A DNA stretch of 40,443 nt from Gammaproteobacteria bacterium (GTDB lineage Bacteria; Pseudomonadota; Gammaproteobacteria; Xanthomonadales; SZUA-5). Position numbers and translations under genes: made by a program. Under the pieces are notes generated by a model. The model was not told the origin of the DNA. It did not search any database and saw only the letters and a program-made list of their open reading frames with translations. Below, piece after piece: positions 21,518-40,443 of this stretch. The first letter of the stretch is position 1. Each line of letters opens with the position of its first letter. Where the stretch lies: the NCBI GenBank assembly GCA_030430155.1, contig JAUIFV010000022.1:1-40443 (forward strand), given 5' to 3'.

Positions 21518-21741
21518 TCCTACTCCCAAAACATGATGGCATTCGCCATGAAGGTCGGGGGGGTCACCCCCGCGTCGCGGCGTATTGTGTCCAAAGCCAC
21601 CTCGCGAGCCAAGGGGCAGCGCGCGCACCGGCGGCAGGGCCGATGCTATATTGCTTTGCGTTCGAGGGCACCTTTGCGGCTGGGGAAGCTGTAAACAGCA
21701 AAGGCGCGTTCGGCGCCGGGCGCCCCATCTGCGAGCAGCAC

Positions 21742-23385: not shown

Positions 23386-23513
23386 CGCGGGCATGCTTGG
23401 GATGGTGGCGCTCGCCGCCACGGGCTCGCGCCGAGGTCGCTTTCGTCCTACTTGGCTGCACAGTTGCGGTCCGTTAATGTTTGGAGCGGGCTTACACAAC
23501 CAGGATGAGCAAG

Positions 23514-25291: not shown

Positions 25292-25720
25292 ATGTCCAAG
25301 ACCATCCAAAAAGGTTTCACCCTGATCGAGCTGATGATCGTCATCGCGATTCTCGGCATTCTGCTGGCCATCGCCATCCCGGCCTACCAGGACTATCTGG
25401 CCCGCGCCCGTGCGTCTGAAGCCGTCTACGCTGCCGCGCCGACCAAGCTCGCCATTGCCGAGTTCCGTCTGAGCAACGGCCGCTACGCCAGCACCTTTGC
25501 CTCTGTCTACACCGCGCCGCCCAATGGCCACGGCAAGTTCGTTGCTGGTGTTGCGCAAAGCGGTAACGGTTTCACCGTGACCTCGCAGGCCACGCAGTGC
25601 AACGGCGGTGAGCCGGTGTTCACCTTCACCCCGCAGGCCCCGGCCACTGGCGCGACTGGTTCGGTGGACTGGCTGTGCACTTCCACCAACACCGTTTGCG
25701 CTCCGGCTTCCTGCCGCTAG
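25292..25720 (+). CDS. pilA: Type IV major pilin, copy 1
   Basis: A 142-residue type IVa prepilin. A short leader ends in KG, followed by [22 protein letters not shown]: cleavage and N-methylation by PilD would occur at Gly8/Phe9, and Glu13 (the conserved Glu5 of the mature pilin) is present. The C-terminal half has four cysteines (103, 129, 136, 141), giving likely disulfides that close the D-region loop. AAGGA lies 7 bases before the ATG. A sigma-54 promoter upstream and a strong terminator at 25742 make it a single-gene unit. It forms the pilus fibre for twitching and adhesion. The second copy, 0.7 kb on, is about 90 percent identical in protein. Confidence 0.96.
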
Positions 25721-25771: not shown

Positions 25772-26423
25772 ATTGCAGTTTTCCGCCAGCCCAAGCTTAT
25801 TCTTTCCGGTGGCCCAAGGTTCTTTAGGTTCTCATCTATTTCCATTCATGCCAGAAGCGCCGGAAACGCCCAGAGTTCAATTTTAAAAACCGTACATTGA
25901 ACGTAGACGGCAAAGGTTTCTTGGCTAGCCCGCATATTTCATGAGTGTTCGTAGCGAGGGCGTCGTAGAGCTGCAGTGGTGCGGTCCGCTTCACTGAAGA
26001 TCGAGGACCGCTTTGCGGTTGATCGCATTTGGCGGCAAACCCAACAATTCCGCATTGCTCAGGGCCTTTCTCTATAGTGCAGCTTTCTAGTCGGCCACCC
26101 GATTGACACACGGCCCGCCATGGCTCCTGCCTGCATCCTTGGAGCTTCCTACTAGATATCTATTTGTATGGAACTCCAACAACGGCATTGGCGCCGGCGT
26201 TTCTTCGGGCCTGTTTAGCTGGCAGCCCTTCCTCGATCCATAGCCCTGCAAAAAGTCTCGAACATATTGCAATTGTTGGCCGATCTATCACACGGTTTTC
26301 TACCGTGGATGTCACCATTTATTCGCCCCCAATGAACACTGGGGAAGTGGGTCGGCGCAGTAGCCCCTGTGGTGGTCTTAATTGGGGTAAAGACACTCCA
26401 TTTGCAATTCATGAGGATTGAAC
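25772..26423. other. Gap between the two pilin genes
   Basis: These 650 bp contain no convincing gene on either strand; the short open frames lack Shine-Dalgarno sites and protein-like composition. I found no correctly spaced GG-N10-GC sigma-54 promoter, so the second pilin probably has a different promoter within this stretch. It is noticeably richer in A and T than the flanking pilin genes. It may be a remnant of a lost gene or hold a regulatory RNA. Confidence 0.5.
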
Positions 26424-26855
26424 ATGTCCAAGTCCATTCAAAAAGGTTTCACCTTGATCGAGCTGATGATTGTCATCGCGATCCTGGGCATTCTGCTGGC
26501 CATCGCAATTCCGGCCTACCAAGACTATCTAGCCCGCGCCCGTGCGTCTGAAGCCGTGTACGCTGCCGCTCCGACCAAACTCGCTATTGCCGAGTTCCGG
26601 CTAAGTAACGGGCGCTACGCCGCTACCTGGGCTTCCGTTTACACTGCACCGCCCAATGGCCACGGAAAGTACGTTTCTGGGCTTGCCCCGACAGGCGTCG
26701 CCGCATTTACAGTCACGTCGCAGAATACTCAGTGCAACGGCGGTGAACCAGTATTCACGTTTACACCGCAGGCCCCGGTCACAGGCGCGACTGGTTCGGT
26801 GGACTGGCTGTGCACCTCCACTAACACCGTTTGCGCGCCAGCTTCCTGCCGCTAG
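26424..26855 (+). CDS. Type IV pilin, copy 2 (tandem paralogue)
   Basis: A 143-residue prepilin with the same leader, cleavage site (KG/FTLIE), N-terminal helix and four C-terminal cysteines as copy 1. Differences cluster at residues 67-69 and in the stretch from about 83 to 101, where [10 protein letters not shown] replaces GVAQSGNGF. Many codons differ silently while the protein is kept, so both copies are under selection. The ATG at 26424 has AGGA 7 bases upstream; an in-frame TTG at 26418 is not preferred. It could be a minor or alternative pilin, a backup, or a partner in one fibre. A weaker terminator follows. Confidence 0.94.
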
Positions 26856-26904: not shown

Positions 26905-27015
26905 GTCAAACAATAGGGATGCAGGGATCGCCGAGCGAAACCCTCGACCAATACCCCGATCAATCCACACCGCTGTATGCTCTGATGCTCCAGTCCTCCT
27001 GCTGAGTTCTTGCAC

Positions 27016-28947
27016 GTGCCACTCTGGCGAGCCCACGTCCCGATTGGGCGTTCCATCGACGATCATCGCTGGTCAATCGCGGTACTGCTTCTGTTGACGG
27101 CCTTGCTCTGCTTCGGCGCAGGCCTTTCCGGGCCACTGCTGTTTGACGATCTACCGAATCTGGAGCCGGTCCTCGCCTGGCAATCGGGCGAACTGGGCTG
27201 GTGGGAAGTCGTATTTGGCAACACCGCAGGCCCGCTCGGACGACCGATCAGTTCTGCCAGCTTTCTGCTTAACGTAATCCTGTTTGGCGACAGTGTTTAT
27301 GCACTGAAACTGGTCAACCTTCTGATTCATTCGGCCAACGGCTTTCTGGTGTACGTATTGAGCCGGATGCTGCTCGTTACAGGCAGCACGCGCACCACCA
27401 GACCTGAAACACTTGCCCTGCTGATTGCAATCGCCTGGACGGTCAATCCCGTTCATGTCAGCACGGTGCTGTACGCGATCCAGCGTACGACCATGCTCAG
27501 CACGACGTTTGTGCTGTTAGCGCTCATCAGCTATCTCCAAGGCAGGCGAATGCTAGCTGAGGGAATCGGCCCTGCCCGTGCGAAGTCACTATTGTTCCTG
27601 CTGTTCCCAGCGCTTTGCATCGCCGCCATGCTGTGCAAGGAGAACGGCATGTTGGCGCCATTCCTGGCTGCGGCAATGGAGTGGTCATTGTTCAGCCGCA
27701 AGCACCGACCGCGCCCAGTGCGGACATTTCTGGGCGTTTTGGTCTTGCTGCCTTTGGCAATCGGCACTGCGTTGGCGTTGTCGGCACTGGGCGATCAAGT
27801 CTGGGTCGCTTACGAACATCGAAGCTTCAGCTTGACGGAACGATTGCTGAGCCAACCTCGAGCGCTACTTGCCTATGCCAGTGGAATCTTGATTCCCGGC
27901 ACCAGTCTGGGATCGGTATACACGGATGGATTCCAGGCCTCGAACTCGTTGTTCGCACCCTTGACCACGGCGCTATCCATATTCGCCTGGCTGGTGCTGA
28001 TCGCTTTGGCATTGTTGGGTAGGACGCGTTTTCCGCTGGTCTGTTGCGGTTTGGCGTTCTTTCTGGTGGGCCATGCGCTGGAGAGCAGCGTGATTCCGCT
28101 GGAGCTGTATTTCGAACACCGCAACTACCTTCCGGCCTTGGGTCTGCTGTTGGCCGCTTCGGCCATCGTCCAGAACTTGCCAATTGCCCAGCGCCTGCGC
28201 ATGGGTATCGGTGTGGGCTTCATCATCCTGTGCGCATTGGTCAGTCACGTTCAAAGTACGACCTGGCGTTCGCACCGGGCTCTAGCCACGCATGCGACGG
28301 CAACATTGCCCGACTCCATTCGTGCGCCGCTGGATCTTGCTGCCCTACTGGCCCAGGACCAAGATCCCGGGCCAACGCTGCAGGTCCTGGATCGCCTCAG
28401 TCGGAAGCCGGCGACGGAAAGCGCGCGGATTGGGCACCTCGTATACATGGCCTATGACTGCACGCTGCGCAGCGACGGATCACCTGAACGATTGGATCCT
28501 CTGCGCGCGATGCCACCAACCGTAATCACACCGTTGCTCACCCAAGCCATCGAGATGCTCGGCGCACAGGTCCTCGATGGGTATTGCAAGCGACTGAGCC
28601 CGACTGCATTGGCGGATTTGATCGCCGCCTACTTGAACCACTCGACCCAACCAAAGAACCTGCATGTGCGTTGGCGACTGGAACACCTGATCGGCAAGCT
28701 TCGGCTGCAGTCCGAGCAGTACGATAGGGGCATTGCAGCGCTGACCGAAGCTTTCGAACACGGCGGCACAGTGGCTCCAGTAGGAGTGGATCTGATCGCC
28801 AACTTGATTGGGCTTGGACGATTTGATGATGCTGCCAGGACCTTGGCTGTCGCCAAGCAGCGCAGAGACGCACAGGATGCCTCGACGCAAGCGATCCTCG
28901 CCGAGTTTGAGAATCAACTGGCCGGGACTCAACCTGACCGGCACTGA
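27016..28947 (+). CDS. Multi-pass GT-C-like protein, candidate pilin glycosyltransferase
   Basis: A protein of about 643 residues. Residues about 20-420 hold ten or more membrane segments; residues about 425-643 are soluble with TPR-like helices (YDRGIAALTEAFEHGG, LGRFDDAARTLAVAK). The first loop carries an acidic pair (LLFDDLPNL), as in GT-C glycosyltransferases that use lipid-linked sugars, and LYFEHRNYLPALGLLLA is a motif I associate with TMTC/TfpW-like proteins. In Pseudomonas, genes placed right after pilA (tfpO, tfpW) encode pilin O-glycosyltransferases; here the position is the same. That role is inference, not proven. The start is uncertain: GTG 27016 or TTG 27010. The stop is at 28947, followed by a 105-bp gap. 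Confidence 0.72.
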   Translation: MPLWRAHVPIGRSIDDHRWSIAVLLLLTALLCFGAGLSGPLLFDDLPNLEPVLAWQSGELGWWEVVFGNTAGPLGRPISSASFLLNVILFGDSVYALKLVNLLIHSANGFLVYVLSRMLLVTGSTRTTRPETLALLIAIAWTVNPVHVSTVLYAIQRTTMLSTTFVLLALISYLQGRRMLAEGIGPARAKSLLFLLFPALCIAAMLCKENGMLAPFLAAAMEWSLFSRKHRPRPVRTFLGVLVLLPLAIGTALALSALGDQVWVAYEHRSFSLTERLLSQPRALLAYASGILIPGTSLGSVYTDGFQASNSLFAPLTTALSIFAWLVLIALALLGRTRFPLVCCGLAFFLVGHALESSVIPLELYFEHRNYLPALGLLLAASAIVQNLPIAQRLRMGIGVGFIILCALVSHVQSTTWRSHRALATHATATLPDSIRAPLDLAALLAQDQDPGPTLQVLDRLSRKPATESARIGHLVYMAYDCTLRSDGSPERLDPLRAMPPTVITPLLTQAIEMLGAQVLDGYCKRLSPTALADLIAAYLNHSTQPKNLHVRWRLEHLIGKLRLQSEQYDRGIAALTEAFEHGGTVAPVGVDLIANLIGLGRFDDAARTLAVAKQRRDAQDASTQAILAEFENQLAGTQPDRH

Positions 28948-29052
28948 TTGATTCCCAAGAGCGGCACGCTACTCCGTAGATCTCCAAGGTGGAAACGCAT
29001 GGGCTTGCGATTCCAATATTGGCGGCCGCGCGGGTGCAGCCAACGCTGAGGA

Positions 29053-30270
29053 ATGATCCGGGCTAGACTTCGGGTGCACTCAAAGGGATGTACGGACATC
29101 GCACGCGCTGACGCCGCTCATCGGCCAACCTCTGGCAATAAGTGTCCTCCGGATCGGCTCAACGTGCTGATGGTCAGCACATCCTATCCCTCCACTTCGG
29201 AGGACTGGCGCGGGCAATTCATTCTTCGATTGAGCGAGGCGCTGAGTCGACACGCTGACCTATCGCTGCGCTCGTGGGCGCCGCCGGGACCGCAGCCGCC
29301 CGGTGCCATCAACGTTGCAACGCAGGAGGAGTCGCTCTGGCTTGGGCAACTGATGACTCGCGGAGGCATTGCCCATCTACTGCGCCGAAACCCTGTGGCC
29401 GGAATACTGGCGGCAGCTCGATTGCTGCGTTTCGAACGACACCTTTTTCGCCGTCAGAGCGATACCCACGTCTATCATCTCAACTGGCTACAAAATGCGC
29501 TGGCACTGCCAAACGATGGTCGCCCGCTGTTGGCAACCGTACTGGGAACCGACATGCAACTGCTGAAAGTGCCACTGATGAAGGCGATGCTGTCGCGGGT
29601 GATGAGCTATAGGACGACCATGCTCTGCCCGAACGCGGAATGGATGGTGGCACCACTGAGCGAGCATTTCGGAAAGCTGGCCAAGGTCGAGTTCGTGCCG
29701 TTCGGCATCGACCCCGCATGGTTCACGGTCGAGCGCCAGCAGACTTCCGATGTGCGCCAGTGGCTATGTGTGAGTCGAGTCACCAAGAACAAGATCGGAA
29801 CGCTGTTCGAATGGGGCCAGACTTGGTTTTCTACCGGCGATCGCGTGCTCCACCTGTTCGGACCGATGCAGGAGGAACTGGCGATACCACCTTGGGTGCG
29901 TTATCACGGACCAGTCGCACCAGCCACGTTGATTGATCAATGGTTTCCACAAGCGACGGGTCTCATATCGCTGAGTCAACACAGCGAAGGCCGGCCGCAA
30001 ATCATGCTGGAGGCGATGGCTGCGGGAGTCCCGATCGTCGCCTCCGCGATAGCGGCCCATCGCAACCTGATTGGCGACCAGCGCAACGGTTGGATCTGCG
30101 AACGGGCTGATCAGCTGGGCGACATCTTGAGTACGGCCGAAACATCGTCCAACAACGTACTGGCCGGGAAACAGGCGCGGCAATGGGCATTGGATCAAAT
30201 CGGCACGTGGGACGACTGCGCCAACCGTTACGTCGATCGCTATCACCGGCTATTTGAGGGTACGCAGTGA
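29053..30270 (+). CDS. Glycosyltransferase family 4
   Basis: A GT-B fold sugar transferase of up to 405 residues, probably cytoplasmic or peripheral to the membrane. The N-terminal domain begins NVLMVSTSYPSTSEDWRGQFILRLSEAL. The C-terminal domain has WLCVSRVTKNKI and the retaining-enzyme E-x7-E motif in SEGRPQIMLEAMAAGVPIVAS, which binds the nucleotide sugar. It would add one sugar to a lipid-linked glycan. The donor is not predictable. The start is unsure: ATG 29053 has a purine run too close; GTG 29164, just before LMVSTSYP, has GGA 10 bases upstream and may be the real start, giving about 368 residues. It is the first of a + strand run reaching 33130. Confidence 0.9.
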   Translation: MIRARLRVHSKGCTDIARADAAHRPTSGNKCPPDRLNVLMVSTSYPSTSEDWRGQFILRLSEALSRHADLSLRSWAPPGPQPPGAINVATQEESLWLGQLMTRGGIAHLLRRNPVAGILAAARLLRFERHLFRRQSDTHVYHLNWLQNALALPNDGRPLLATVLGTDMQLLKVPLMKAMLSRVMSYRTTMLCPNAEWMVAPLSEHFGKLAKVEFVPFGIDPAWFTVERQQTSDVRQWLCVSRVTKNKIGTLFEWGQTWFSTGDRVLHLFGPMQEELAIPPWVRYHGPVAPATLIDQWFPQATGLISLSQHSEGRPQIMLEAMAAGVPIVASAIAAHRNLIGDQRNGWICERADQLGDILSTAETSSNNVLAGKQARQWALDQIGTWDDCANRYVDRYHRLFEGTQ

Positions 30271-30307
30271 GGCAGAGCAAAGAACCTAGCCGGCAATCGG
30301 GTCAACC

Positions 30308-31249
30308 ATGACCCGTTCAATTGCCATTCTGGGAGCTGGTGGGTTCATCGGCAATCACCTTGCGCTGCGTCTGGCCGCAAGCGGACACAGCGTAATCGCC
30401 GCCAGCAGGAAGCCGAGTAGCTTTGAACACCCGAACATTCGCAACTTGGTCGGCGTATACGATGCGCCCGAGCACTTTAGGGATCTCGTCCAAAGCTGCG
30501 ATACGATCATTCACGCGGCGGCGAGCTCGACGCCCGGGTCCACTGCGAACGCGCCGTTGCGTGAAATCGTGGGAGACTTGCAGTCGACCCTGTCGATGCT
30601 CTCCAGCATGCAATCGGCGACGGCACCTCGACTGCTCTACTTTTCGTCAGGAGGCGGCATCTACGGTGATCGAAGAACCGGAGGACATACGGAACGCAGC
30701 GCAGTGCATCCTCGTTCGTATCACGGTGCGGCGAAGGCCTCCGCCGAGCACTTCGTGCATGCTTGGGCAAAGCAATACGACAAACGCGCGGTCATTCTGA
30801 GACCATCCAATGTTTATGGGCCTGGACAAGTAGGCAAGCCGGGCTTTGGAATCGTTCCTTGGGCACTCGCCGCCGCATCGAGAGGTGAACCGTTCACGAT
30901 ATGGGGCGACGGAGGTGCGACGCGCGACTACCTTTATGTTGACGACCTGACCGACCTCGTAACCCGAATCCTCGACACCGAGTTCGCACCCGGCGTCCAA
31001 ACCGTAAACGCCGCCGCAGGCGTAGCGACATCAATCAACGACCTGCTAGCCACTATTGAAGCGGTTACCGGGAGGACGATTAGCCGCACCTACCAATCAC
31101 CCCGCAGAGTGGATCTGCAATCTGTTGCCCTGGACAACCGTATGGCCCGCGCGCAGTACCAGTGGTTGCCTCGGACCGATCTGCGCTCGGGACTGGAAGA
31201 AACCTGGCGATGGACACTGACAAAACACTCCGAAGATCCCACGCCCTAA
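30308..31249 (+). CDS. NAD-dependent epimerase/dehydratase (extended SDR)
   Basis: A 313-residue sugar-nucleotide epimerase or dehydratase. The Rossmann motif is GAGGFIG near residues 9-15. The Thr/Ser catalytic segment is LLYFSSGGGIYGD near residue 113, and ILRPSNVYGPGQVG plus WGDGGATRDYLYVDDL are standard. The active-site stretch reads SYHGAAKASAE: the lysine is followed normally, but the tyrosine is five residues before it instead of four, and histidine occupies the usual Tyr place. It may be a shifted loop or a weakened enzyme. It would make an NDP-sugar (for example a UDP-galactose or related hexose) for this cluster. It lies 37 bp after the GT4 gene and 31 bp before the GT2 gene. Confidence 0.88.
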   Translation: MTRSIAILGAGGFIGNHLALRLAASGHSVIAASRKPSSFEHPNIRNLVGVYDAPEHFRDLVQSCDTIIHAAASSTPGSTANAPLREIVGDLQSTLSMLSSMQSATAPRLLYFSSGGGIYGDRRTGGHTERSAVHPRSYHGAAKASAEHFVHAWAKQYDKRAVILRPSNVYGPGQVGKPGFGIVPWALAAASRGEPFTIWGDGGATRDYLYVDDLTDLVTRILDTEFAPGVQTVNAAAGVATSINDLLATIEAVTGRTISRTYQSPRRVDLQSVALDNRMARAQYQWLPRTDLRSGLEETWRWTLTKHSEDPTP

Positions 31250-31280
31250 GCGCTCACGGGTTTCCATCGAGGCATCGGTG

Positions 31281-32342
31281 ATGAATGCAAGTGCGCAAGC
31301 CACCGTCAAAGTGTCGGTACTGATAGCCAACTACAATGGCGAAAGCTTGCTGCACGATTGCCTAAGATCCGTCTTGGAGCAATCCGGCGCAAGTGATATC
31401 GAGATCATCGTCCACGATGACGCTTCGACCGACGCGTCGCTCGCGTTGCTCAAACACCACTATCCCACGGTCAAAGTCATCAGCAGCGATCGCAACGTTG
31501 GATTCTGCGTTGCCAACAATCGCATGGCGGCCGTCGCCAACGGTCGATATCTGCTGCTCCTGAACAACGACGCGGCGCTGTTTGCAGATGCCGTGGAAAC
31601 GATGCTTCACGCGGCCGGAGCTGCACGCCCAACGTCGATCATTGCGACAGTGCCGCAATACGACTGGGAAACAGGTGAGTTGGTAGACCAAGGTTGCCAT
31701 CTGGATCCCTTCTACAACCCAGTGCCCATCCGCTCGTCTAAACCATGCAGCGCGGCAATGGTCATCGGTGCTTGTCTGTTTGTCGAGCGAGATTTGTGGA
31801 TCCGCGCCGGTGGTTTCCCTGAGTGGTTCGGCTCGATCGCCGAGGACATGCTCCTTTGCTGTACCGCGCGCCTGCAGGGCGCCGAAGTCATTTCTTGCAG
31901 CAACAGTGGCTACCGGCATCGGCAGGGCGCCAGTTTCGGCGGATCTAGGGTGAGCCGCGGAAAGCTGGCGAGCAACCTGCAAAGGCGCCGCCTCAGCGAG
32001 CACAACAAGACCATGGTGATGCTGATTTGCACACCGGGCGTCGCGCTCGTGCTACTGCTACCGTTGCATCTATTGCTGCTGCTTTTTGAAGGGGTGGTCT
32101 TGACGACGGCGGCTGGATCGCTGCGGCCGTTGAAAGCGATCTATCTCCACACGCTCTACAGCGTATGGTCAGACCGGCAGCGGTGGGTTGCCGAAAGACA
32201 ACGGGTCGCGGGAACACGCAAGCTGGGTGCTATTCGCTACTTCAGCCGCTTCCGGCTGTTTCCTAGAAAGCTGCAGATGCTGGTCAAGCACGGTTTCCCA
32301 AGTTTGACCATGGGCAGTGAGCGGACTCAAAAACAAAAGTAG
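31281..32342 (+). CDS. Glycosyltransferase family 2 with C-terminal membrane segment
   Basis: A 353-residue GT-A transferase. VSVLIANYNGESLLHDCLRSVLEQ opens the nucleotide-binding fold; IIVHDDASTD and LLLLNNDAAL give the acidic metal-binding positions; GGFPEWFGSIAEDMLLCCTARLQG fits the acceptor ED motif. One long hydrophobic stretch at about residues 250-275 (VMLICTPGVALVLLLPLHLLLLLFEGVV) anchors it to the membrane. GAGG lies 8 bases before the ATG at 31281; a GTG at 31278 is in frame. It would extend a lipid-linked saccharide. It follows the SDR gene closely in an operon. Confidence 0.92.
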   Translation: MNASAQATVKVSVLIANYNGESLLHDCLRSVLEQSGASDIEIIVHDDASTDASLALLKHHYPTVKVISSDRNVGFCVANNRMAAVANGRYLLLLNNDAALFADAVETMLHAAGAARPTSIIATVPQYDWETGELVDQGCHLDPFYNPVPIRSSKPCSAAMVIGACLFVERDLWIRAGGFPEWFGSIAEDMLLCCTARLQGAEVISCSNSGYRHRQGASFGGSRVSRGKLASNLQRRRLSEHNKTMVMLICTPGVALVLLLPLHLLLLLFEGVVLTTAAGSLRPLKAIYLHTLYSVWSDRQRWVAERQRVAGTRKLGAIRYFSRFRLFPRKLQMLVKHGFPSLTMGSERTQKQK

Positions 32343-32377
32343 CTCCTGCATGGCTATGCAACACACTGGATTATGAA

Positions 32378-33130
32378 ATGAATTCGACTATACGTGCGGT
32401 GCTGCTGATGTTGCGACGGATACCGCTATTCGTTGAAGCCCGATTCGATAATCGCTTTCTAGCCGATGACGTAGCGCCTCCGCGGAAGGTGACTCACGCG
32501 AACTGGCAAAACGCTTTGCTGGAACTGGCAAATGTAAAAGGCGCTCGCGTTCTGGAAGTAGGTAGTCGCGAGGTTACCGGAAAATCAAGTTTCAGGAAGC
32601 AGTTCTCGAAAGCCGAGTACATAGGCTTCGACTATTACAGCGGGAGCAATGTGGATATCGTAGGTGACGCCCACAAATTGTCTTCATATTTCGACCCAGG
32701 AACTGAATTCGACCTGATTTTCTCGAGCGCCAGCTTTGAGCATTTCGCCATGCCCTGGGTCGTATCCCAGGAAATCTGCAAACTGCTTCGGGTGGGTGGA
32801 CATGTGTTCGTGGAAACCCACTTCTCCTACAGCTCTCACGAGCGACCGTGGAACTTTTTCCAATTCAGCGACATGGGACTGCGCGTCCTGTTCAACGAGC
32901 AGCTCGGGATCACCCCCGTGGACTCAGGCATGTGCAACCCCATCGTCGGACGCTTCTCTTCCCTGGCGGACCCCTATTTGCGTCTGACACCCGTGCCTGC
33001 ACTTTATTGCCACAGCGCGTTTCTGGGCAAAAAGACCAAGCATGTCGCTGATTTCAGTTGGGATCGTGCCAGTGTCGAGAACCTCGTATCAGGCACAACC
33101 TATCCGAAGCCAGCAGTCCACAGGGACTAG
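32378..33130 (+). CDS. Class I SAM-dependent methyltransferase 1
   Basis: A 250-residue methyltransferase. SAM motif I is ARVLEVGSREVTG near residue 55; YIGFDYYSG supplies the ribose-binding acid; FDLIFSSASFEHF and EICKLLRVGGHVFVETHF complete the fold. The context of glycosyltransferases suggests O- or N-methylation of a sugar or a glycan end cap, which can also stop chain growth. The exact target is unknown. It ends the + strand run and faces the GT2 gene at 33223 across 92 bp, where I see no clear terminator. Confidence 0.87.
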   Translation: MNSTIRAVLLMLRRIPLFVEARFDNRFLADDVAPPRKVTHANWQNALLELANVKGARVLEVGSREVTGKSSFRKQFSKAEYIGFDYYSGSNVDIVGDAHKLSSYFDPGTEFDLIFSSASFEHFAMPWVVSQEICKLLRVGGHVFVETHFSYSSHERPWNFFQFSDMGLRVLFNEQLGITPVDSGMCNPIVGRFSSLADPYLRLTPVPALYCHSAFLGKKTKHVADFSWDRASVENLVSGTTYPKPAVHRD

Positions 33131-33222
33131 CTCAAGCGCCAGACCTGGCTCCACCGTCCTCAAGGAATCGGCGGTCAGCATTGTGCCCCTCATTCGAGCA
33201 GATAGTTGCCCAGCATTACTCC

Positions 33223-34197
33223 CTAGTCCGAAACGAGATCTGCCGTCTTCCCTGTCCGCATCGGCCCCATGTGGCCGCGCAACCCATCCCATAGCCCCCA
33301 CGCAATGTAGCGGATGTTGACCAAACGCCTTGGCGAGAACAGCACATAGGCGTACAGGTTCCCTAGCCAATACCACAACGCCCGCAGCTTCCAGCGTCCG
33401 GGAACGAAGTCCGCCTTGAGAATCGCAATGAAATTGCGGAAACGGTAATAGAGCCGCTGCGGCGAGTAGCCGTTGTAGGGGCGCCACTTCAAGTACCAAA
33501 CCGGAAACTGATCCTCGCCGAGCCGCTGGCTGAGCACGGCCCGGGAGGTCCCGAACAGTTTGTAGCCAAAGTGGATCGCTCGATGACACCACTCCGTGTC
33601 AACGTAATCGATGAAATAGTCCTCTCGCATTTCGCCAACGACGTCAAAGACATCAAGGCGAATGAGCGAGCCGGACGTGATTGCACTCAGAATCTCGATC
33701 CAAGGCTCACCAGATCTCGGCGGCGCGACCGAATAGAAAAACCTGCCGGGTCGTTGAACTTGAAAACCAAACGCATGCCCGGTGACCTCATCGACGTACT
33801 CCGGTGACACCAGGCCAACCGGCAATCCTTCCTTGCGCAGTGCCGTGTCGGTGCGCAGTAACTCGTCCACCATTCCTGAAGATGGCAGGCTGTCTTGATC
33901 ACTTAGCAGTACGTAGTCGAAACCCGCAGCTCTGGCCGCCTCAAGGCCCACGTTGATTGCCGAGCCTATTCCACAATTCTGGCGCAGCCGAACCACACTC
34001 AGTGCGTCTCCGAAGGCCCTGTGGTTCAGGACCAGCTTCTCCACAGATGGGTCCTCGAACCCGGAGTTATCCACGATCAAGACGCGGTTCACCTGCTCCG
34101 CAAGCGACTCCACCAGTTCAAGCAGACGCACCGCATCTGGGCGATAGGTCACCACCAGCGCGCACACCCGAGTGGCGCCTACTTCACCAAGTACCAA
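33223..34197 (-). CDS. Glycosyltransferase family 2, rhamnosyltransferase-like
   Basis: A transferase of about 324 residues resembling the TIGR01556 rhamnosyltransferases of O-antigen clusters (WbbL/RfbN type). The core has ALVVTYRPDAVRLLELVESL, VLIVDNSG, LLSDQDSLPSSGMV (metal-binding DxD region) and the acceptor part ITSGSLIRLDVFDVVGEMREDYFIDYVDTEWCHRA. GIGSAINVGLEAA is typical. It probably adds a deoxyhexose such as rhamnose, but no rmlABCD genes lie in this window. The start is TTG 34197 or GTG 34167, just before CALVVTYR; neither has a strong Shine-Dalgarno. It is on its own on this strand, facing two + strand methyltransferase genes. Confidence 0.9.
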   Translation of the reverse strand: MVLGEVGATRVCALVVTYRPDAVRLLELVESLAEQVNRVLIVDNSGFEDPSVEKLVLNHRAFGDALSVVRLRQNCGIGSAINVGLEAARAAGFDYVLLSDQDSLPSSGMVDELLRTDTALRKEGLPVGLVSPEYVDEVTGHAFGFQVQRPGRFFYSVAPPRSGEPWIEILSAITSGSLIRLDVFDVVGEMREDYFIDYVDTEWCHRAIHFGYKLFGTSRAVLSQRLGEDQFPVWYLKWRPYNGYSPQRLYYRFRNFIAILKADFVPGRWKLRALWYWLGNLYAYVLFSPRRLVNIRYIAWGLWDGLRGHMGPMRTGKTADLVSD

Positions 34198-34405
34198 GTT
34201 GCTCGAGATATCCGATACTCCCGATCGTCAGGAAAGCGCCAATCACGCATGCCGCAAGACCGACGAAGCACCCAATGCTACCGCCTCAGACCTCTCGCAA
34301 ACCAACCGTGCTGCAGTTCCCGATCGATCACTTGCCGCCAGAGTTTGCACTCCGCCATCAGCTAGGACTTAAGATTGTCAGTGCCCACCAACCTACGGAG
34401 TCAGC

Positions 34406-35335
34406 GTGTCAGACGCCAAGTCTATTCAGAGCGAACTTGCCAAGCTAATCGCTGAACACGGTCCCTGGAGCTATGACATCCCCCTCGGCCATGGAATCTG
34501 GACGAGAGGAAACGAGGGACTTCCCCATACCAGACTGCGCAGACTCCTCCAGGCCACGTGCGACATCCTACAAACACCCCCAGAAACCTGGAGGGTACTC
34601 GATCTAGGCTGCCTGGATGGACAGTTCTCCATCGAGTTTGCACTGCAGGGAGCCGAAGTCATTGGCGTTGATGCCCGTGAAGCCAACATAGTCAAGGCTG
34701 AGTACTGCCGCAAGGTACTCAATCTGAATCGACTCCGCTTCCTCCACGCAGACGTCAGGGATCTCAGTGCACAAAGCCTGGGCGAATTTGACGTCATCCT
34801 TTGCAGTGGCCTGCTTTACCATCTCCCGGCCAACGATGCCGCAGAGCTGCTCAGTACCATGTATCAAATGACCCGCCACCTGGTTCTCATAGATACTCAC
34901 ATCTCACTATTGGGCGACGCCACGGTGCAAATAGATGAATCCGTGTGCCACGGTCATATCGCGCGGGAACACGCCGAGGGAAGCACCGACGAACAGAAGC
35001 GCAGTCGCACCTGGGCTTCGGCCGACAATAACGAGAGCTTTTGGTTCAGCAGGTCTTCGCTGATAAACCTACTTGCTAACAATGGATTCAGCTCCGTTTA
35101 CGAATGTTTCAATCCTCCACACCTGAATTTCGGCAGACCCGGCTTGGAATCCAACGATCGTTGCACTTTTGTGGCAATAAAGGGAGTATCGCAGGAATTG
35201 TTAACCGCGCCAATAACCAACGAAACCCTGGAGACGTTTCCGGAGCGTTCTTTGCAATACCCGATGATCGGACCGGGGCTCCTCGCGTTGCGAGAATGGG
35301 TGAAGAAAATAAAATCAATTGTCAAGCGTCAGTAG
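34406..35335 (+). CDS. Class I SAM-dependent methyltransferase 2
   Basis: A 309-residue enzyme. Motif I is WRVLDLGCLDGQFSIEF near residue 62, with VIGVDAREANIVKAEYC as motif II, and DVILCSGLLYHLP in the substrate pocket. The layout (SAM domain in the middle, tail of about 100 residues) resembles sugar or small-molecule methyltransferases in polysaccharide loci. GTG at 34406 is supported by GGAG 6 bases upstream. Its stop region overlaps the stop of the converging gene by 14 bp. The 208-bp gap on the left (34198-34405) shows no gene. Confidence 0.86.
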   Translation: MSDAKSIQSELAKLIAEHGPWSYDIPLGHGIWTRGNEGLPHTRLRRLLQATCDILQTPPETWRVLDLGCLDGQFSIEFALQGAEVIGVDAREANIVKAEYCRKVLNLNRLRFLHADVRDLSAQSLGEFDVILCSGLLYHLPANDAAELLSTMYQMTRHLVLIDTHISLLGDATVQIDESVCHGHIAREHAEGSTDEQKRSRTWASADNNESFWFSRSSLINLLANNGFSSVYECFNPPHLNFGRPGLESNDRCTFVAIKGVSQELLTAPITNETLETFPERSLQYPMIGPGLLALREWVKKIKSIVKRQ

Positions 35336-36104
35336 CCCCTTTCCGAAAAAGAAAGAATGGCTCCCTAGCATTGACTCCGAACCTGGAGGAACTCACCTCC
35401 GGAAGAATTTCACTGTGTCCTCCGACGCAAGACCGCAAGTCGAATTGACCAAACCGATCAAAAATATCCTTGCCATACAACCTCACATGATCTTCCTGGC
35501 CGTAGGCCTGCAGTCTCGCTGAATCCGAATCGATCCCGGAGTCAGACCAGGTTTGCTGCAGCTTGGAACTGAATGGCGTCTGCAGTATTGCTGCGCCATT
35601 CGGTACGAGCACCCGGCCAATCTCGGCAAGTGCGCGCAAATCATCTTCAACATGCTCAAGGACATGATTTGCAATGACCAAGTCGAATGTTTCACTCTCG
35701 AAAGGCAAGGCCTGAATATCAAGCCTAAGATAGTCCGGTGAAGTGGGAAAAAGGTCTCCTCGGACATAGTGCCTCGGACCGCGCTCCGTAATCAATCTGG
35801 ACAAGTGACGCTCCGGCGCAAAGTGCAGGACCGAACTGCCGTCTATCGACTCGAATAGACCGCTATGCTTCATGTAGAGAACCAAATGCCTTTCTCGGTC
35901 AAAACTCCCACACCTAGGGCAACTGAAATTCTTAACGTCGCTTCCGATCAGGTCCAACTCCCGAAGCATTGGAGGTATGCCGGCCAATCCTCCCCGATAA
36001 GGAAGGAATCGCCCAATCTGTTTCTCACATACCACGCACCATGCCCCACTGCGTCGCGGCAACATCCCCCAGATTCGCAACAAGTTGTCAGCGACGACTC
36101 CCAT
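35322..36104 (-). CDS. SAM-dependent methyltransferase 3 with N-terminal zinc ribbon
   Basis: A 260-residue methyltransferase. Two CxxC pairs (Cys23/Cys26 and Cys62/Cys65, in WCVVC and SCPRCGSFDRERHL) form a likely zinc ribbon ahead of the SAM domain. SSVLHFAPERHLSRLI holds a variant motif I; LRLDIQALPFESETFDLVIANHVLEHVEDD is the type 11 methyltransferase signature. The ATG at 36104 is chosen over the upstream in-frame start at 36203: GGAAAGG precedes it, and it avoids a 67-bp overlap with the GT2 gene. It lies 32 bp after that gene and is the last of a minus-strand run. Its glycan or protein target is unknown. Confidence 0.85.
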   Translation of the reverse strand: MGVVADNLLRIWGMLPRRSGAWCVVCEKQIGRFLPYRGGLAGIPPMLRELDLIGSDVKNFSCPRCGSFDRERHLVLYMKHSGLFESIDGSSVLHFAPERHLSRLITERGPRHYVRGDLFPTSPDYLRLDIQALPFESETFDLVIANHVLEHVEDDLRALAEIGRVLVPNGAAILQTPFSSKLQQTWSDSGIDSDSARLQAYGQEDHVRLYGKDIFDRFGQFDLRSCVGGHSEILPEVSSSRFGVNAREPFFLFRKGATDA

Positions 36105-36136
36105 AACCCTTTCCGCATCTCGCTTGTAAGGTGGTC

Positions 36137-37186
36137 TCAATCCATTCTTTGATAATTCCGCATCTCGCTCATCAGCATCTTGAATTCCCTCAAGAGAACA
36201 CAACCGAAACCCGCCAGTCTTGAGTGGATTAACACCGCCATGATTCGAGGCTTAAGATGCCGAGTGTACTCGCGATCATGCGCTTCAAGCCAGTTCCACG
36301 CGTCAGAGAACGCACCCTTGTTGTGAGTGAACAATGCCCAGCTCAATTCGAGCCGCGCCAGATCACGGGCCCCGATTCGAGCTTCCTCGTTCCTCCCCAG
36401 CAACTGGCCGATTTGCTCGATCATCTGGCGTGAGCGCCTAATTTGGCTCATTCGTGCGGCGTAACCAGCGTTGGTCGCTGAACCGGGCGCCCTACGATAG
36501 ACCGCAGTGACGCAATCGAGGTAGCCAATCTCGGACGCACTGGCGACAAAAATGAAGAACGGCCAATCTCCAACAGGACTGACTACTCTATTTAGCGCTG
36601 ACTTGCGGTATTCTGCGAAAAGCCCAACTCGAGCACAGAACGTACATGACTGGATAAAGTTTCCAACAAGAAGCTGAGAAACCGCATTCTCCGAATCAAA
36701 CGCATTAGAGGCCAGGTTGTTGTCGTTTTCAGCTATTCGCCAATGCCCGAACCTCGAGATGATGTGGGCGAAGTTTGTGTGGACCAGTCCTGCTTTCGGA
36801 TTGCTTTGAAGAAAGTCGACCTGCATCTGGAGCTTGTTGGAATCAGTCCAGTAGTCGTCCCCTTCGCAATATGCTACGAATCTACCGCGAACCTGTCTTA
36901 CCAGTTCATTGTAGTTCGATTCCGCGCCAACGTTTTTAGCCCACCTCAGGACCTTGATCAGATGTGGGAATCGCTTCGCGTGAGCACGCGCTATAGAAAA
37001 TGTCTCATCAGTAGAACTGTCGTCACCGATGAGCAATTCAAAGGTGAAATCAGTGCATTGCTCAACGACACCCCTGATAGCTTCTTCAATGAATCCAGCT
37101 TGGTTGTAAGTGGGCATAAGCACGCTTACCAGCGGCTGGGCTTGCTCGAACTCCTCGCTACAGAATACTTCAAGGCCTCTATCCAT
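36137..37186 (-). CDS. Glycosyltransferase family 2
   Basis: A 349-residue GT-A transferase. VSVLMPTYNQAGFIEEAIRGVVEQ opens the fold; IGDDSSTDET and YCEGDDYWTDSNKLQMQVDFL carry the metal-binding acids and are typical of capsule and LPS side-chain GT2 enzymes. No membrane anchor is evident. The ATG at 37186 comes directly after the TAA of the flippase gene (TAA-ATG), so translation is coupled. Base composition is clearly more A/T-rich than in the first half of the window, consistent with a transferred cassette. Confidence 0.91.
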   Translation of the reverse strand: MDRGLEVFCSEEFEQAQPLVSVLMPTYNQAGFIEEAIRGVVEQCTDFTFELLIGDDSSTDETFSIARAHAKRFPHLIKVLRWAKNVGAESNYNELVRQVRGRFVAYCEGDDYWTDSNKLQMQVDFLQSNPKAGLVHTNFAHIISRFGHWRIAENDNNLASNAFDSENAVSQLLVGNFIQSCTFCARVGLFAEYRKSALNRVVSPVGDWPFFIFVASASEIGYLDCVTAVYRRAPGSATNAGYAARMSQIRRSRQMIEQIGQLLGRNEEARIGARDLARLELSWALFTHNKGAFSDAWNWLEAHDREYTRHLKPRIMAVLIHSRLAGFGCVLLREFKMLMSEMRNYQRMD

Positions 37187-38620
37187 TTATCTATGTCGGG
37201 CCCTTCCAAATAGCTGAATGATGTCGTCGGCGGCCGTAAAACGCGCCAACAAGACTATGAGTGCGTAGACCAAAAACGCACCGGGAAGTACCAGTGCAAG
37301 CATCAGAGGTGAGTTCATTTGCCAACTGTCGTTCAGAACACAAAGACACGCTGCAAGCACCATACTGAGGCACAGTGGTGCGCTGATGTCTGTCAGTTGA
37401 CTACGGGCATCGTAGCCCAATAGCTTCTTGGTGTAGTGCGCGTTGATCCCGAGTGCGGCAATTGAAAATACCACTTGGCTCCAGGCTACGCCTAGGACGC
37501 CAAAAAAGGAACCTGAGATGATAAGGCCGACTCCCAACAACTTCTTCTGCAACTCGAGCTTGAACAACAGTTTCGCGTGGCCCTGTGCAAGCAAGGCGTT
37601 CAGGTTGATCGCGTGCACAGGATAGAGCAAACCGGCAAGGCAGAGAATGCTGAGGATCGGCGCCGTCGGTTGCCACTTTCTTCCCAACAGTACTTCGATG
37701 ATCGGGTCAGCCAATGCCGCCATGAATAACATTATCGGCGCGTTGAGCAACATCATTCCTCGAACTGAGACCTGCACTCCTCTGCGAATCTTATCGGGCG
37801 CTTCTTGCGCTGCGGCGAAGAGCGGAAAGGCGACCCGGGAGATCACCCGCACCAAGAAAGTGCTGGGAACCTGTTGAAGGGCATCGGCGTTGGTGTAGTA
37901 GCCAACATCGCGGATTTCGTGGAACTTTCCCAGCAACACGGTGTAGAGGCGTGTGTAGCCCAGATCGCCCAGGATGGCAGCGAAATGGTATGAACTGAAC
38001 GGCAAGAGTTCTTTGATTGAGCGAAACGCCGGTTTGCCCTTCGGCCTCCAATCGTTCAGCCACCAAAGCAAGGCAGAGTTGAGACCTGCCATGAGCACCG
38101 ACTGTACCGCGAGTGCCCACACGCCATGGCCTTCAAGCGCCAACCAAACCGCGGTGGATCCGGAAACAAGCGTAGCGAGAAGTCCAGCCTGCATCGGAAT
38201 TTGAAAGTTGAGCCGACGCGATAGCAGCGTTGTGTGGATCGCACCGAATGATGCAAAGGCCACACCCAACGACATAAACCGCATCAGGTCCGCGAGTAGT
38301 TGCTGCTCGTAGAACAAAGCGATCATGGGTGCGATCGCGAAAATCAGAGCGGACGCGGACAGACCGATGAGCAAGTTGAACCAGAAGATGCTTGTTTCAT
38401 CAACGATGTCAACGTTGCGACGTTGGATCAAGGCAGCGGAGAAGCCGCCATCCACAAAGACTCCAGCGAGCCCGGTGAAGAGCATGATCGCTGCGATCAG
38501 GCCAAAATCAGAGGGACTGAGTATGCGAGCCAGGACCAGCGTGACCGCGACCTGGATGATCTGCCGGCCGGCCACTTCTATGGCGCTCCACGTGGTCGCG
38601 ACGAGTGCCTCGGCTTTCAC
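37187..38620 (-). CDS. Wzx-like polysaccharide/lipid-linked glycan flippase
   Basis: An inner-membrane protein of the MOP superfamily with about twelve to fourteen hydrophobic segments, 477 residues from GTG 38620. ATTWSAIEVAGRQIIQVAVTLVLARILSPSDFGLIAAI is the family's usual first helices; TRLYTVLLGKFHEIRDVGYY and SRVAFPLFAAAQEAP are also typical. It would flip undecaprenyl-linked oligosaccharide to the periplasm for polymerisation or ligation. The GTG is favoured because the family N-terminus begins near KAEALV and because a small upstream gene ends in TGA-G-GTG; the frame is open to an ATG at 38707, which would add 29 unlikely residues. It is the key export gene of the cluster, yet no Wzy is seen in the window. 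Confidence 0.9.
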   Translation of the reverse strand: MKAEALVATTWSAIEVAGRQIIQVAVTLVLARILSPSDFGLIAAIMLFTGLAGVFVDGGFSAALIQRRNVDIVDETSIFWFNLLIGLSASALIFAIAPMIALFYEQQLLADLMRFMSLGVAFASFGAIHTTLLSRRLNFQIPMQAGLLATLVSGSTAVWLALEGHGVWALAVQSVLMAGLNSALLWWLNDWRPKGKPAFRSIKELLPFSSYHFAAILGDLGYTRLYTVLLGKFHEIRDVGYYTNADALQQVPSTFLVRVISRVAFPLFAAAQEAPDKIRRGVQVSVRGMMLLNAPIMLFMAALADPIIEVLLGRKWQPTAPILSILCLAGLLYPVHAINLNALLAQGHAKLLFKLELQKKLLGVGLIISGSFFGVLGVAWSQVVFSIAALGINAHYTKKLLGYDARSQLTDISAPLCLSMVLAACLCVLNDSWQMNSPLMLALVLPGAFLVYALIVLLARFTAADDIIQLFGRARHR

Positions 38621-38621
38621 C

Positions 38622-38870
38622 TCAGACGCCCACCAGCCTTGGCCAATCGGGGATTTCCCAGTGGGCCAGGGCATAACACCACAATGCATGGCGCTCAAGC
38701 GATCCACCGTCAGCGACGATCGGCAAGAGGGCGAAGAGGGCGCCGGTCACGCAGCCAGGTAGCTCTCTAAAAAGCAGGCCTTGCGGCCGTGCGCACGTAC
38801 AGATGTAGTGCACCATTGAGTCTACTCGCAGCTGAGCAATCTCCTGGAGCGTCAGCGGTTGCTCATACAC
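38622..38870 (-). CDS. Possible small protein of 82 residues, unknown
   Basis: An 82-codon frame starts with GTG at 38870, preceded by GAGGAG six bases upstream, a strong Shine-Dalgarno. It ends in TGA one base before the flippase GTG, suggesting coupled translation. The product starts YEQPLTLQEIAQLRVDSMVHY, has a short hydrophobic stretch (LPGCVTGALFALLPIVA) and four cysteines. I recognise no family. It could be a real small gene, a leader peptide controlling the flippase, or a chance frame. The rest of 38871-38969 shows no gene. Confidence 0.4.
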   Translation of the reverse strand: MYEQPLTLQEIAQLRVDSMVHYICTCARPQGLLFRELPGCVTGALFALLPIVADGGSLERHALWCYALAHWEIPDWPRLVGV

Positions 38871-38969
38871 GAGGAACTCCTCATTGCCGAACTCGCATAC
38901 GATTCATACGTTCACTGAAAGCGGCGTGATCGAATACAGAAGCGAGCAAGAGCGGGACACGCGCGAATG

Positions 38970-39695
38970 CTAGTCGCGTCCACAAACGAGGTAAATACTC
39001 GCTGATAGGTCCGGATATTTCATGCCCAGCGCATAGCAACCGTCCAGATACGCTTGATCGATGATCTTGTGTTGAATCATGAGATCGAACTGGAAATTCG
39101 CGAAGGGCTTGAACACGATTCCACCTCGGGAAACCACACTCAATCCGGCGCTACGCACATCATGCTCTAGTGTGTCCAAACTGTAGGTGCAGCGATGGCC
39201 GTGTTCTCGCTCCCCTTCGGTCACGGAAGTACAGGTATTGATCAAGCTCATATGGACTGCGATCTGGCGTGATGCCGCGTAGGCGTTTGGAACCACCACA
39301 AAGAGCTTGCCGCTCGGAGCCAACCAAGTCTTGATTCGTTCAAGATCAGCAATGGGGTCGTCAAGATGTTCCAACGTATGCACGAGAAAGATGGACTCGA
39401 ATTCTCCCGAAAAATCAACCGATTGAATCGTGCCCTGTACGAATTGAACTCGGCTAGGGACACGTTCTTTGGCGATTGCGATAAGCGACTCGGCAGGCTC
39501 GATCACAGTCAGGTCTTCGAAGCACTCAGAGAAGAGGGTCGTTGAGTCGCCCTGGAAGCAGCCGATTTCAAGTGCCTTTCCTGCAGTAAAGAAAGGGCTG
39601 AGCGATTGCATCATGTACTTTCTGACGATTGAGTCGAAATCATAGGCGTATTGCCTCAGGCCGGTATCTCGATACTCTTCGTTGAAATTACGCAC
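38970..39695 (-). CDS. Class I SAM-dependent methyltransferase 4
   Basis: A 241-residue enzyme. Motif I is KALEIGCFQGDSTTLF near residue 40; DLTVIEPAESLIAIAKE supplies the SAM ribose contact; FESIFLVHTLEHLDDP and WLAPSGKLFVVVPNAYA complete the type 11/12 fold. GTG at 39695 is used, with AGGG about 8 bases upstream. It starts 9 bp after the dioxygenase gene stop, so the two are one transcript. The function is probably methylation of a nucleotide sugar or a glycan intermediate. It separates from the flippase by a 350-bp stretch. Confidence 0.88.
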   Translation of the reverse strand: MRNFNEEYRDTGLRQYAYDFDSIVRKYMMQSLSPFFTAGKALEIGCFQGDSTTLFSECFEDLTVIEPAESLIAIAKERVPSRVQFVQGTIQSVDFSGEFESIFLVHTLEHLDDPIADLERIKTWLAPSGKLFVVVPNAYAASRQIAVHMSLINTCTSVTEGEREHGHRCTYSLDTLEHDVRSAGLSVVSRGGIVFKPFANFQFDLMIQHKIIDQAYLDGCYALGMKYPDLSASIYLVCGRD

Positions 39696-39704
39696 GTGGA
39701 AACC

Positions 39705-40443
39705 CTATCCCTGACCTGGTTTGTACATTCGCTTCTCAGGAGGCTGATACCATTCATCCAGACTCGCCGGAACACGCGCATTGTAGCCGAGAATTTGCCG
39801 CACACGCTCATTGGGCGGGAATTCATCTCCCAGCAAACGTGGATAGTCCAGCTGCTGTTTGAAGAACGGCCTGGTGAATGTCAACGTCAGCGCCATGCGT
39901 GATCGTTTGGTCCTATTCGGTGCAGCCGCATGCCACAAGTTTGAATCGAATAGAAGAATACTTCCGGCAAGACCACAAACCTGCTCGGCTCTGCGCTCGA
40001 GCTCTGTTTCGGAAGGCCTTTCCTTTCGTCGATGTGAACCAGGTACGATCAACGTAGCGCCGTTCTCAGGGGTGAATTCATCAACCATGACCAGCATGTT
40101 CACCATCAGCCGGAAATCATGGGAATAGGTCCTGACATCTCGGTGGAATCGTAGACCATGGTCATAACCTGACTGTGTCGACGGGAGGTTCTCCAGTGCA
40201 CCAAACGAATTCAGTATGTACTCGCCCTCGAAATAGCTTGAGATCTGTTCGTCGAGATAGAGGGCGAACAGAAATTGATTGAGGCCATCACCGCCACCGA
40301 CAATGTGATGGGCCGAGCCATCAAATTTGGATTCCAAACCGTTCTTAATCCGCCAGTCCCTGCAAACCTGCTGACATCGGGCGACGTCCTTCTTTATCAA
40401 GCCCAACAACTGGCCTGGGACCATGTTGGGAAACAGAGCGAAG
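39705..40443 (-). CDS. PhyH-type Fe(II)/2-oxoglutarate dioxygenase, N-terminus off the right edge
   Basis: At least 245 residues on the minus strand; the frame continues to the window edge (FALFPNMVPGQ), so the beginning is missing. The double-stranded beta-helix metal site is visible as GLRFHRDVRTY (HxD) and SNLWHAAAPNRTKRSRMALTLTF (distal His and the Arg that binds 2-oxoglutarate). NGATLIVPGSHRR is typical of phytanoyl-CoA dioxygenase family members. The family hydroxylates small molecules and, in surface-glycan clusters, may modify sugars or lipids. Here its place beside a methyltransferase suggests a hydroxylation-then-methylation step, which is inference. It is likely the first or an early gene of the minus-strand run. 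Confidence 0.88.
   Translation of the reverse strand, partial: FALFPNMVPGQLLGLIKKDVARCQQVCRDWRIKNGLESKFDGSAHHIVGGGDGLNQFLFALYLDEQISSYFEGEYILNSFGALENLPSTQSGYDHGLRFHRDVRTYSHDFRLMVNMLVMVDEFTPENGATLIVPGSHRRKERPSETELERRAEQVCGLAGSILLFDSNLWHAAAPNRTKRSRMALTLTFTRPFFKQQLDYPRLLGDEFPPNERVRQILGYNARVPASLDEWYQPPEKRMYKPGQG

Follow-up and report, generated by a model that had tools for sequence, protein, structure and literature searches.

The 40,443-nucleotide contig JAUIFV010000022.1 of a gammaproteobacterium of the Xanthomonadales lineage SZUA-5 (assembly GCA_030430155.1) harbours a glycan gene cluster that we judge rather likely to be an island for the glycosylation of type IV pilin, whose product would be a short, methylated and oxidatively modified glycan. 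The window, i.e. the whole stretch of DNA analysed here, is an entire contig (C233) of a 5.06 Mb genome assembled in 287 contigs and 96.6% complete; the sequence beyond position 40443 is therefore not readable. An earlier note, made from the letters of this DNA alone, had suggested that the cluster makes a heavily methylated, possibly hydroxylated O-chain, as of lipopolysaccharide (LPS), or a methyl-capped glycan. A methylated and oxidatively modified glycan still fits the genes, while the assignment to an LPS O-chain is probably wrong. The O-chain reading is not supported: the gene order from two pilA genes through a GT-C/TPR gene to a Wzx-type flippase, a related island in another genome (G082) that reaches from pilA to pilB and pilC, and the recurrence of the dioxygenase-methyltransferase gene pair PhyH-MT4 in pilin and flagellin settings all speak for glycosylation of pilus protein. 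The pilS-pilR-pilA1-pilA2-GT-C/TPR run, which the earlier note did not include, lies directly left of the glycan cluster on the same strand. The genes of the locus, including the S-adenosylmethionine (SAM)-dependent methyltransferases MT1 to MT4, are:

21643–23385, plus strand: pilS sensor kinase, which anchors the island on its left side; 58% identity over 525 amino acids to a sucC-adjacent gene of genome G004, named from synteny with pilR and pilA
23481–24884, plus strand: pilR response regulator (Pfam Response_reg, Sigma54_activat and HTH_8)
25292–25720, plus strand: pilA1 type IV pilin (Pfam N_methyl and Pilin PF00114)
26418–26855, plus strand: pilA2 type IV pilin, a near-copy of pilA1 by alignment (Pfam N_methyl and Pilin PF00114)
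27010–28947, plus strand: putative membrane glycosyltransferase of the GT-C type with a TPR domain at the C-terminus, proposed to act as a glycosyl- or oligosaccharyl-transferase on pilin (fold alignment, motifs, prepilin linkage)
29053–30270, plus strand: GT4 glycosyltransferase (Pfam PF13692 and PF00534)
30308–31249, plus strand: SDR sugar epimerase/dehydratase (Pfam Epimerase, 156.6 bits; under all NCBIfam equivalog cut-offs)
31278–32342, plus strand: GT2a glycosyltransferase (Pfam PF00535)
32378–33130, plus strand: MT1 SAM methyltransferase (Pfam Methyltransf_23/_11; Methyltransf_23 34.1 bits, cut-off 27)
33223–34197, minus strand: GT2b, rhamnosyltransferase-like (NCBIfam TIGR01556 199.5 bits, narrowly under the cut-off of 200.55)
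34406–35335, plus strand: MT2 SAM methyltransferase (Pfam Methyltransf_23/_25; 57.0 bits, cut-off 27)
35322–36203, minus strand: MT3 methyltransferase with N-terminal CxxC...CPxC knuckle (Pfam Methyltransf_11 51.9 bits, cut-off 21.2)
36137–37186, minus strand: GT2c glycosyltransferase (Pfam PF00535); a relative adjoins MT3 in L024, G003 and G082
37187–38707, minus strand: Wzx-type flippase (Pfam PF13440, 273.9 bits)
38970–39695, minus strand: MT4 SAM methyltransferase, partner of PhyH (Pfam Methyltransf_23 68.1 bits, cut-off 27)
39705–40442, minus strand: PhyH Fe(II)/2-oxoglutarate dioxygenase, 5' end lost at the contig edge (Pfam PF05721 76.8 bits, cut-off 22)

The link between the glycan genes and the pilus is provided by the gene that starts 154 bp past pilA2. 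It encodes a membrane protein of 645 residues, in which Pfam detects DUF6056 (27.5 bits) and a TPR match under the cut-off. Between residues ~11 and 450 the structure model of this protein aligns with Pmt4, Pmt1-Pmt2, STT3, ArnT, AglB and PglB (VIA-align Z 15–19; root-mean-square deviation 4.4–6.0 over ~290–360 residues), and residues ~470–645 align with TPR proteins in the same program. A DD motif in the first external loop (residues 46–47) occurs in all six of the seven aligned family rows that reach that far; the aligned family also has R(P/W)...SF, a KEN/KES/KPN site and EHRNY in common. These resemble the motifs of the TMTC proteins listed in PMC7801869, which are DD, SHKSYRP..SF, KET and ERxxY. 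Fold alignment and TMTC-like motifs together make a GT-C glycosyltransferase with a TPR tail the most likely identity of the modelled protein.

A profile built from seven GT-C/TPR proteins and run over 369 genomes of the class recovers the family in 104 of them; the members directly downstream of pilA are often in tandem copies (L087–L116). In 24 of the 30 loci examined, the 1.5 kb preceding the gene contain a prepilin motif on the same strand, and in none of the 30 does the downstream flank contain one; among 401 control stretches of 1.5 kb drawn from other loci, two contain such a motif. Removal of the two loci that had contributed to the profile leaves the linkage at 22 of 28. The six loci without an upstream prepilin include one cut by a contig end (L094) and two with another family member directly upstream (L090 and L101). 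Within the window's own taxonomic family, genomes G003 and G004 each have two GT-C/TPR copies on the pilA contig, and G008 has one fragment beside pilA. Judged from sequence and position, the pilA-linked GT-C/TPR family probably comprises the pilin glycosyltransferases of the class, which singles out a widespread group of candidate enzymes. In G042, a further match to the family (G042:C1:1406970-1407695) contains eight in-frame stops and is apparently a pseudogene.

Related islands in other genomes suggest what may lie past the contig end. The genes of these relatives are open reading frames (ORFs) chosen by codon-position GC, some of which are spurious in high-GC contigs; conclusions rest on genes with BLAST or Pfam support, and all others are marked as read by eye. 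A closed counterpart of the island is found in G082, which belongs to the same class but to a different family; a single contig there reads pilS-pilR-pilA-pilA-GT-C/TPR-GT2-GT4-GT2-DegT-WbqC-GH130-GH130-GNAT-MT4-Wzx-GT2c-MT3. Past MT3, the opposite strand carries a GT4 and a methyltransferase-like gene; T2SSE/MshEN (PilB) and T2SSF (PilC) come next, with a PilD-like ORF (by eye) at the contig edge; pilus genes thus flank the island on both sides. The minus-strand run PhyH-MT4-Wzx-GT2c-MT3 of the window is collinear with MT4-Wzx-GT2c-MT3 of G082. In a Caenimonas locus (L024), DegT, WbqC, a flippase-like ORF (by eye), PhyH, MT4, GT2c and MT3 are consecutive, with a pilin gene ~3.4 kb past MT3. 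Two genomes of the window's own family have sucC, pilS, pilR, pilA and GT-C/TPR together on one contig; in G004, none of the genes right of pilA matches PhyH, MT4 or Wzx of the window. By analogy with the G082 and L024 orders, the simplest inference is that the window island would also run to pilB, with DegT and WbqC in the unassembled stretch.

The enzymes that modify the glycan were identified using Pfam with its curated gathering cut-offs, with NCBIfam equivalog models as a further test. All four methyltransferases, of the class-I SAM type, and the PhyH dioxygenase exceed these cut-offs, as the earlier note had proposed. Its count of four glycosyltransferases holds for the whole cluster (29053–37186); the segment 32378–40443 to which it referred contains just two of them (33223–34197 and 36137–37186), the other two and the SDR epimerase lying upstream. 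The idea that few loci carry so many modifying enzymes was overstated: related islands carry similar sets, and many modifying enzymes per glycosyltransferase are usual in filament-glycan islands, since flagellin islands and the relatives described here have them. A profile of MT4 matches PDB entries 2p7h/2p7i from end to end (5e-113); the entry is listed as a hypothetical protein and is presumably ECA1738 of Pectobacterium, on which a literature search found nothing. In PhyH, H100-x-D102, H171 and R182 do not vary among the aligned homologues (23 of 23); by analogy with other members of the fold, we take H100, D102 and H171 to be the metal triad and R182 to be the 2-oxoglutarate arginine. The PhyH model (pLDDT 84.8) matches the fold of solved Fe/2OG dioxygenases and, like SptF, AndA, TlxI and DhiD, has the same fold and catalytic set. 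The best-matching oxygenases of the PhyH fold are mostly natural-product enzymes rather than sugar-acting ones. The N-terminus of PhyH is missing and most homologues extend further at that end, the contig ending inside the gene. Membership of PhyH in the orthosomycin oxygenases (EvdO/AviO/HygX, EvdMO1) was considered and is not supported: the best solved-structure matches are DhiD, TlxJ and AndA, compared with 6e-5 for 6ec3, which we take to be EvdMO1, and 0.25 for EvdO2. Orthosomycin-like chemistry is retained solely as a speculative option.

PhyH and MT4 are a conserved pair. Among 33 PhyH loci from a species-level genome collection, 16 show PhyH followed directly by a relative of MT4 (gap between match ends −1 to 127 bp); these 16 belong to Alpha-, Beta- and Gammaproteobacteria, one unclassified proteobacterium and one planctomycete. 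The 17 others comprise 13 loci of Mucilaginibacter/Pedobacter and four weak partial matches (L031–L034). A search of the class with MT4 finds it in seven of 369 genomes, with PhyH adjacent in four. Over all 39 loci examined, the two genes are adjacent in 19, and within the stretches examined a DegT match accompanies 17 of these 19 pairs and a WbqC match 14. Flagellar genes occur in six of the 19 (FliC in L003, L012, L077, L078 and L079; FliS in L028), and addition of the L024 pilin brings filament genes to seven of 19, many of the stretches being short. GH130-like, hexapeptide, TylF-like and second PhyH genes as well as TPR-GT41 proteins recur near the pair. Eight loci (L005, L006, L009, L012, L013, L016, L027 and L029) have GH130-like, PglD/NeuD-like hexapeptide and TylF-like methyltransferase genes, mostly also a second PhyH, a set that resembles a single pathway leading to a filament sugar. 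In Mucilaginibacter (L007, L008, L010, L014, L015, L018–L020, L022 and L030), the same PhyH stands beside a GT2c-like glycosyltransferase without MT4; PhyH may therefore act without the methylase and have a role independent of MT4.

From the observed gene content and order, folds, catalytic residues, pilA linkage and PhyH-MT4 pairing, we infer the substrates, the order of reactions, the pilin acceptor and a route past the contig end as follows. The cytoplasmic GT4 and GT2 enzymes, one of them probably a rhamnosyltransferase that draws on dTDP-rhamnose, would build a short lipid-linked oligosaccharide. PhyH would oxidise one sugar or its acyl substituent and MT4 would methylate it in a paired step, while MT1–MT3 would add more methyl groups or work on neighbouring residues; the DegT/WbqC aminosugar route would lie past the contig end. 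Wzx (37187–38707) would then flip the lipid-linked glycan, and the GT-C/TPR protein, which resembles protein O-mannosyltransferases (PMTs) and oligosaccharyltransferases (OSTs), would transfer the glycan or its terminal sugar onto PilA1/PilA2, its TPR tail possibly binding the pilin or a partner in assembly. A more far-reaching proposal, which we put forward tentatively, is that PhyH-MT4 is a portable cassette of pilin and flagellin islands across several proteobacterial classes and a planctomycete. It might carry out one coupled chemistry on a filament-linked sugar. In one version, an unactivated carbon of the sugar ring or of an N-acyl group would be oxidised and the hydroxyl so formed O-methylated; in the other, O-methylation would come first, and oxidative ring closure would then give a methylenedioxy bridge. 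In the same proposal, the pilA-adjacent GT-C/TPR proteins would be bacterial counterparts of the TMTC O-mannosyltransferases.

The precursors appear to come from elsewhere in the genome. The earlier note had observed that no Wzy or rml genes are in view, which is true of the window, and had suggested that precursors might be borrowed; in agreement with this, contig C40 of the genome carries a strong match to RmlC (225.6 bits), whose neighbouring genes read by eye as rmlB, rmlA, rmlD and GDP-mannose pyrophosphorylase (manC), giving the run rmlB-A-C-D-manC. This locus probably supplies dTDP-rhamnose. Together with the near miss of GT2b to the rhamnosyltransferase model, it makes rhamnose a likely but unproven constituent of the predicted glycan.

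Several observations count against a pilin glycosylation island. The window stops within PhyH, so the right border, where pilB is expected, is out of sight, and Wzx-based export also serves O-antigen or exopolysaccharide. The GT-C/TPR model is of moderate confidence (pLDDT 72.7); Foldseek alone finds no match to it under 0.001 and mixes TPR proteins with ArnT, AglB and PglB. A search of the contigs of the source genome for WbqC gives no match, and one for DegT gives seven, all at or below 40 bits compared with 343 bits for a true DegT; the aminosugar part is thus either in an assembly gap or absent. Searches with PhyH, WbqC, DegT and T2SSE/PilB reveal no contig with the missing right part. The PF00437 matches do not put pilB beside glycan genes: among the T2SSE contigs, which also include C127 and C98, C45 reads by eye as a GspE/GspD operon, and C191, C5 and C9 have no glycan cluster beside the T2SSE gene. 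In G003 (L051–L052, G003:C11:40001-80000), pilS-sucC and pilR-pilA flank the glycan genes on opposite sides, unlike in G004 and the window; this order, which misfits a simple island, may reflect a rearrangement (inversion) or a misassembly. MT4 occurs without adjacent PhyH in G082 and G192 (also in G213).

The view of the earlier note, an O-antigen cluster with a methylated and hydroxylated O-chain that stands beside pilA by chance, is unlikely. Flippase, glycosyltransferases and sugar-modifying enzymes are O-antigen-like content too, and the right flank that is out of sight could contain Wzy; however, the GT-C/TPR family is tied to pilA in most of its loci, and the closed G082 island sits between pilA and pilB-pilC. 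There is no Wzy_C-family match on C233, although Wzy families are diverse and the right flank lies beyond the contig. C3 carries a separate exopolysaccharide-like cluster with a Wzy_C protein and with Wza, PCP and Wzy-like genes, read by eye save for the Wzy_C match. Two Wzy_C-family proteins in all exceed the cut-off elsewhere in the genome (on C117 and C3), which would suit a lipid-linked oligosaccharide common to pilin and LPS. There is a precedent for such sharing in Pseudomonas aeruginosa, where TfpO puts O-antigen units on group I pilins according to PMC11841053; this two-acceptor glycan is nevertheless decidedly improbable, a polymerase or ligase being recognised neither in the window island nor in the closed G082 island. 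It is very improbable, finally, that PhyH and part of the methyltransferases are mere passengers whose substrate is an unrelated lipid or small molecule. In the G082 island, neither MT1 nor MT2 has an evident close counterpart (an MT1-like match at 23% and none for MT2), and none of MT1–MT4 passes the cut-off of a curated sugar-methyltransferase model; against this, MT3-GT2c and PhyH-MT4 recur jointly in glycan loci.

Type IV pili are phage receptors and adhesion organs. Glycosylation of pilin and of flagellin is already known, and what looks distinctive here is the GT-C/TPR enzyme and the PhyH-MT4 pair. In P. aeruginosa, pilin is glycosylated by TfpO (group I) and TfpW (group IV); reference titles in PMC11841053 describe the latter as an arabinosyltransferase of the GT-C family and as a multifunctional enzyme, both glycosyltransferase and oligosaccharyltransferase. 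As with TfpW/TfpO, likened here by description, an accessory glycosyltransferase gene is tied to the pilA type; the window differs in a GT-C protein with a TPR tail and PMT/OST-like fold, followed by a full GT-Wzx-methyltransferase-PhyH cluster. The flagellin islands common in Enterobacteriaceae are likewise inserts beside a filament gene with glycosyltransferases, DegT aminotransferases and several AdoMet methyltransferases, and in PMC4875605 aminotransferases are counted in 242 and possible methylation in 235 of 307 island-bearing strains; the words 'phytanoyl' and 'dioxygenase' are absent from its main text. PhyH-MT4 adjoins FliC in other bacteria, in line with such islands, but the filament here is the type IV pilus, and the island has a Wzx and a GT-C enzyme. 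With TMTC1–4 and PMT protein O-mannosyltransferases the window protein has in common a GT-C core with DD and related motifs, and with TMTC the TPR tail; unlike them it is bacterial and pilA-linked, and known here from sequence and model. A literature search, largely of titles and abstract beginnings and including parts of PMC4875605, PMC7801869, PMC11841053 and PMC3130047, found no publication on the PhyH-MT4 pair or the pilA-linked GT-C/TPR family, and the predicted coupled chemistry is possibly novel. The reading preferred here would shift a methylated glycan away from LPS and onto type IV pili, and it names a conserved oxygenase-methyltransferase pair whose chemistry is directly testable on pili or flagella.

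Among the remaining features of the window, MT3 is a distinct type of methyltransferase, as far as its sequence indicates, with a zinc-knuckle-like N-terminus. HFAPE/HMAPE replaces the usual SAM motif I, and both this motif and the CxxC...CPxC knuckle are conserved in four aligned sequences (including the relatives in Caenimonas, G003 and G082); MT3 adjoins GT2c in all four loci aligned. The true start of MT3 probably lies downstream of 36203, at a lower coordinate. The two pilin genes are ~700 bp apart, and in alignment their products differ mostly in the mid-globular part. The GC content drops rightward from 64.1% (1–25000) through 59.0% (27001–32000) to 54.0% (32378–40443), in keeping with acquired DNA.

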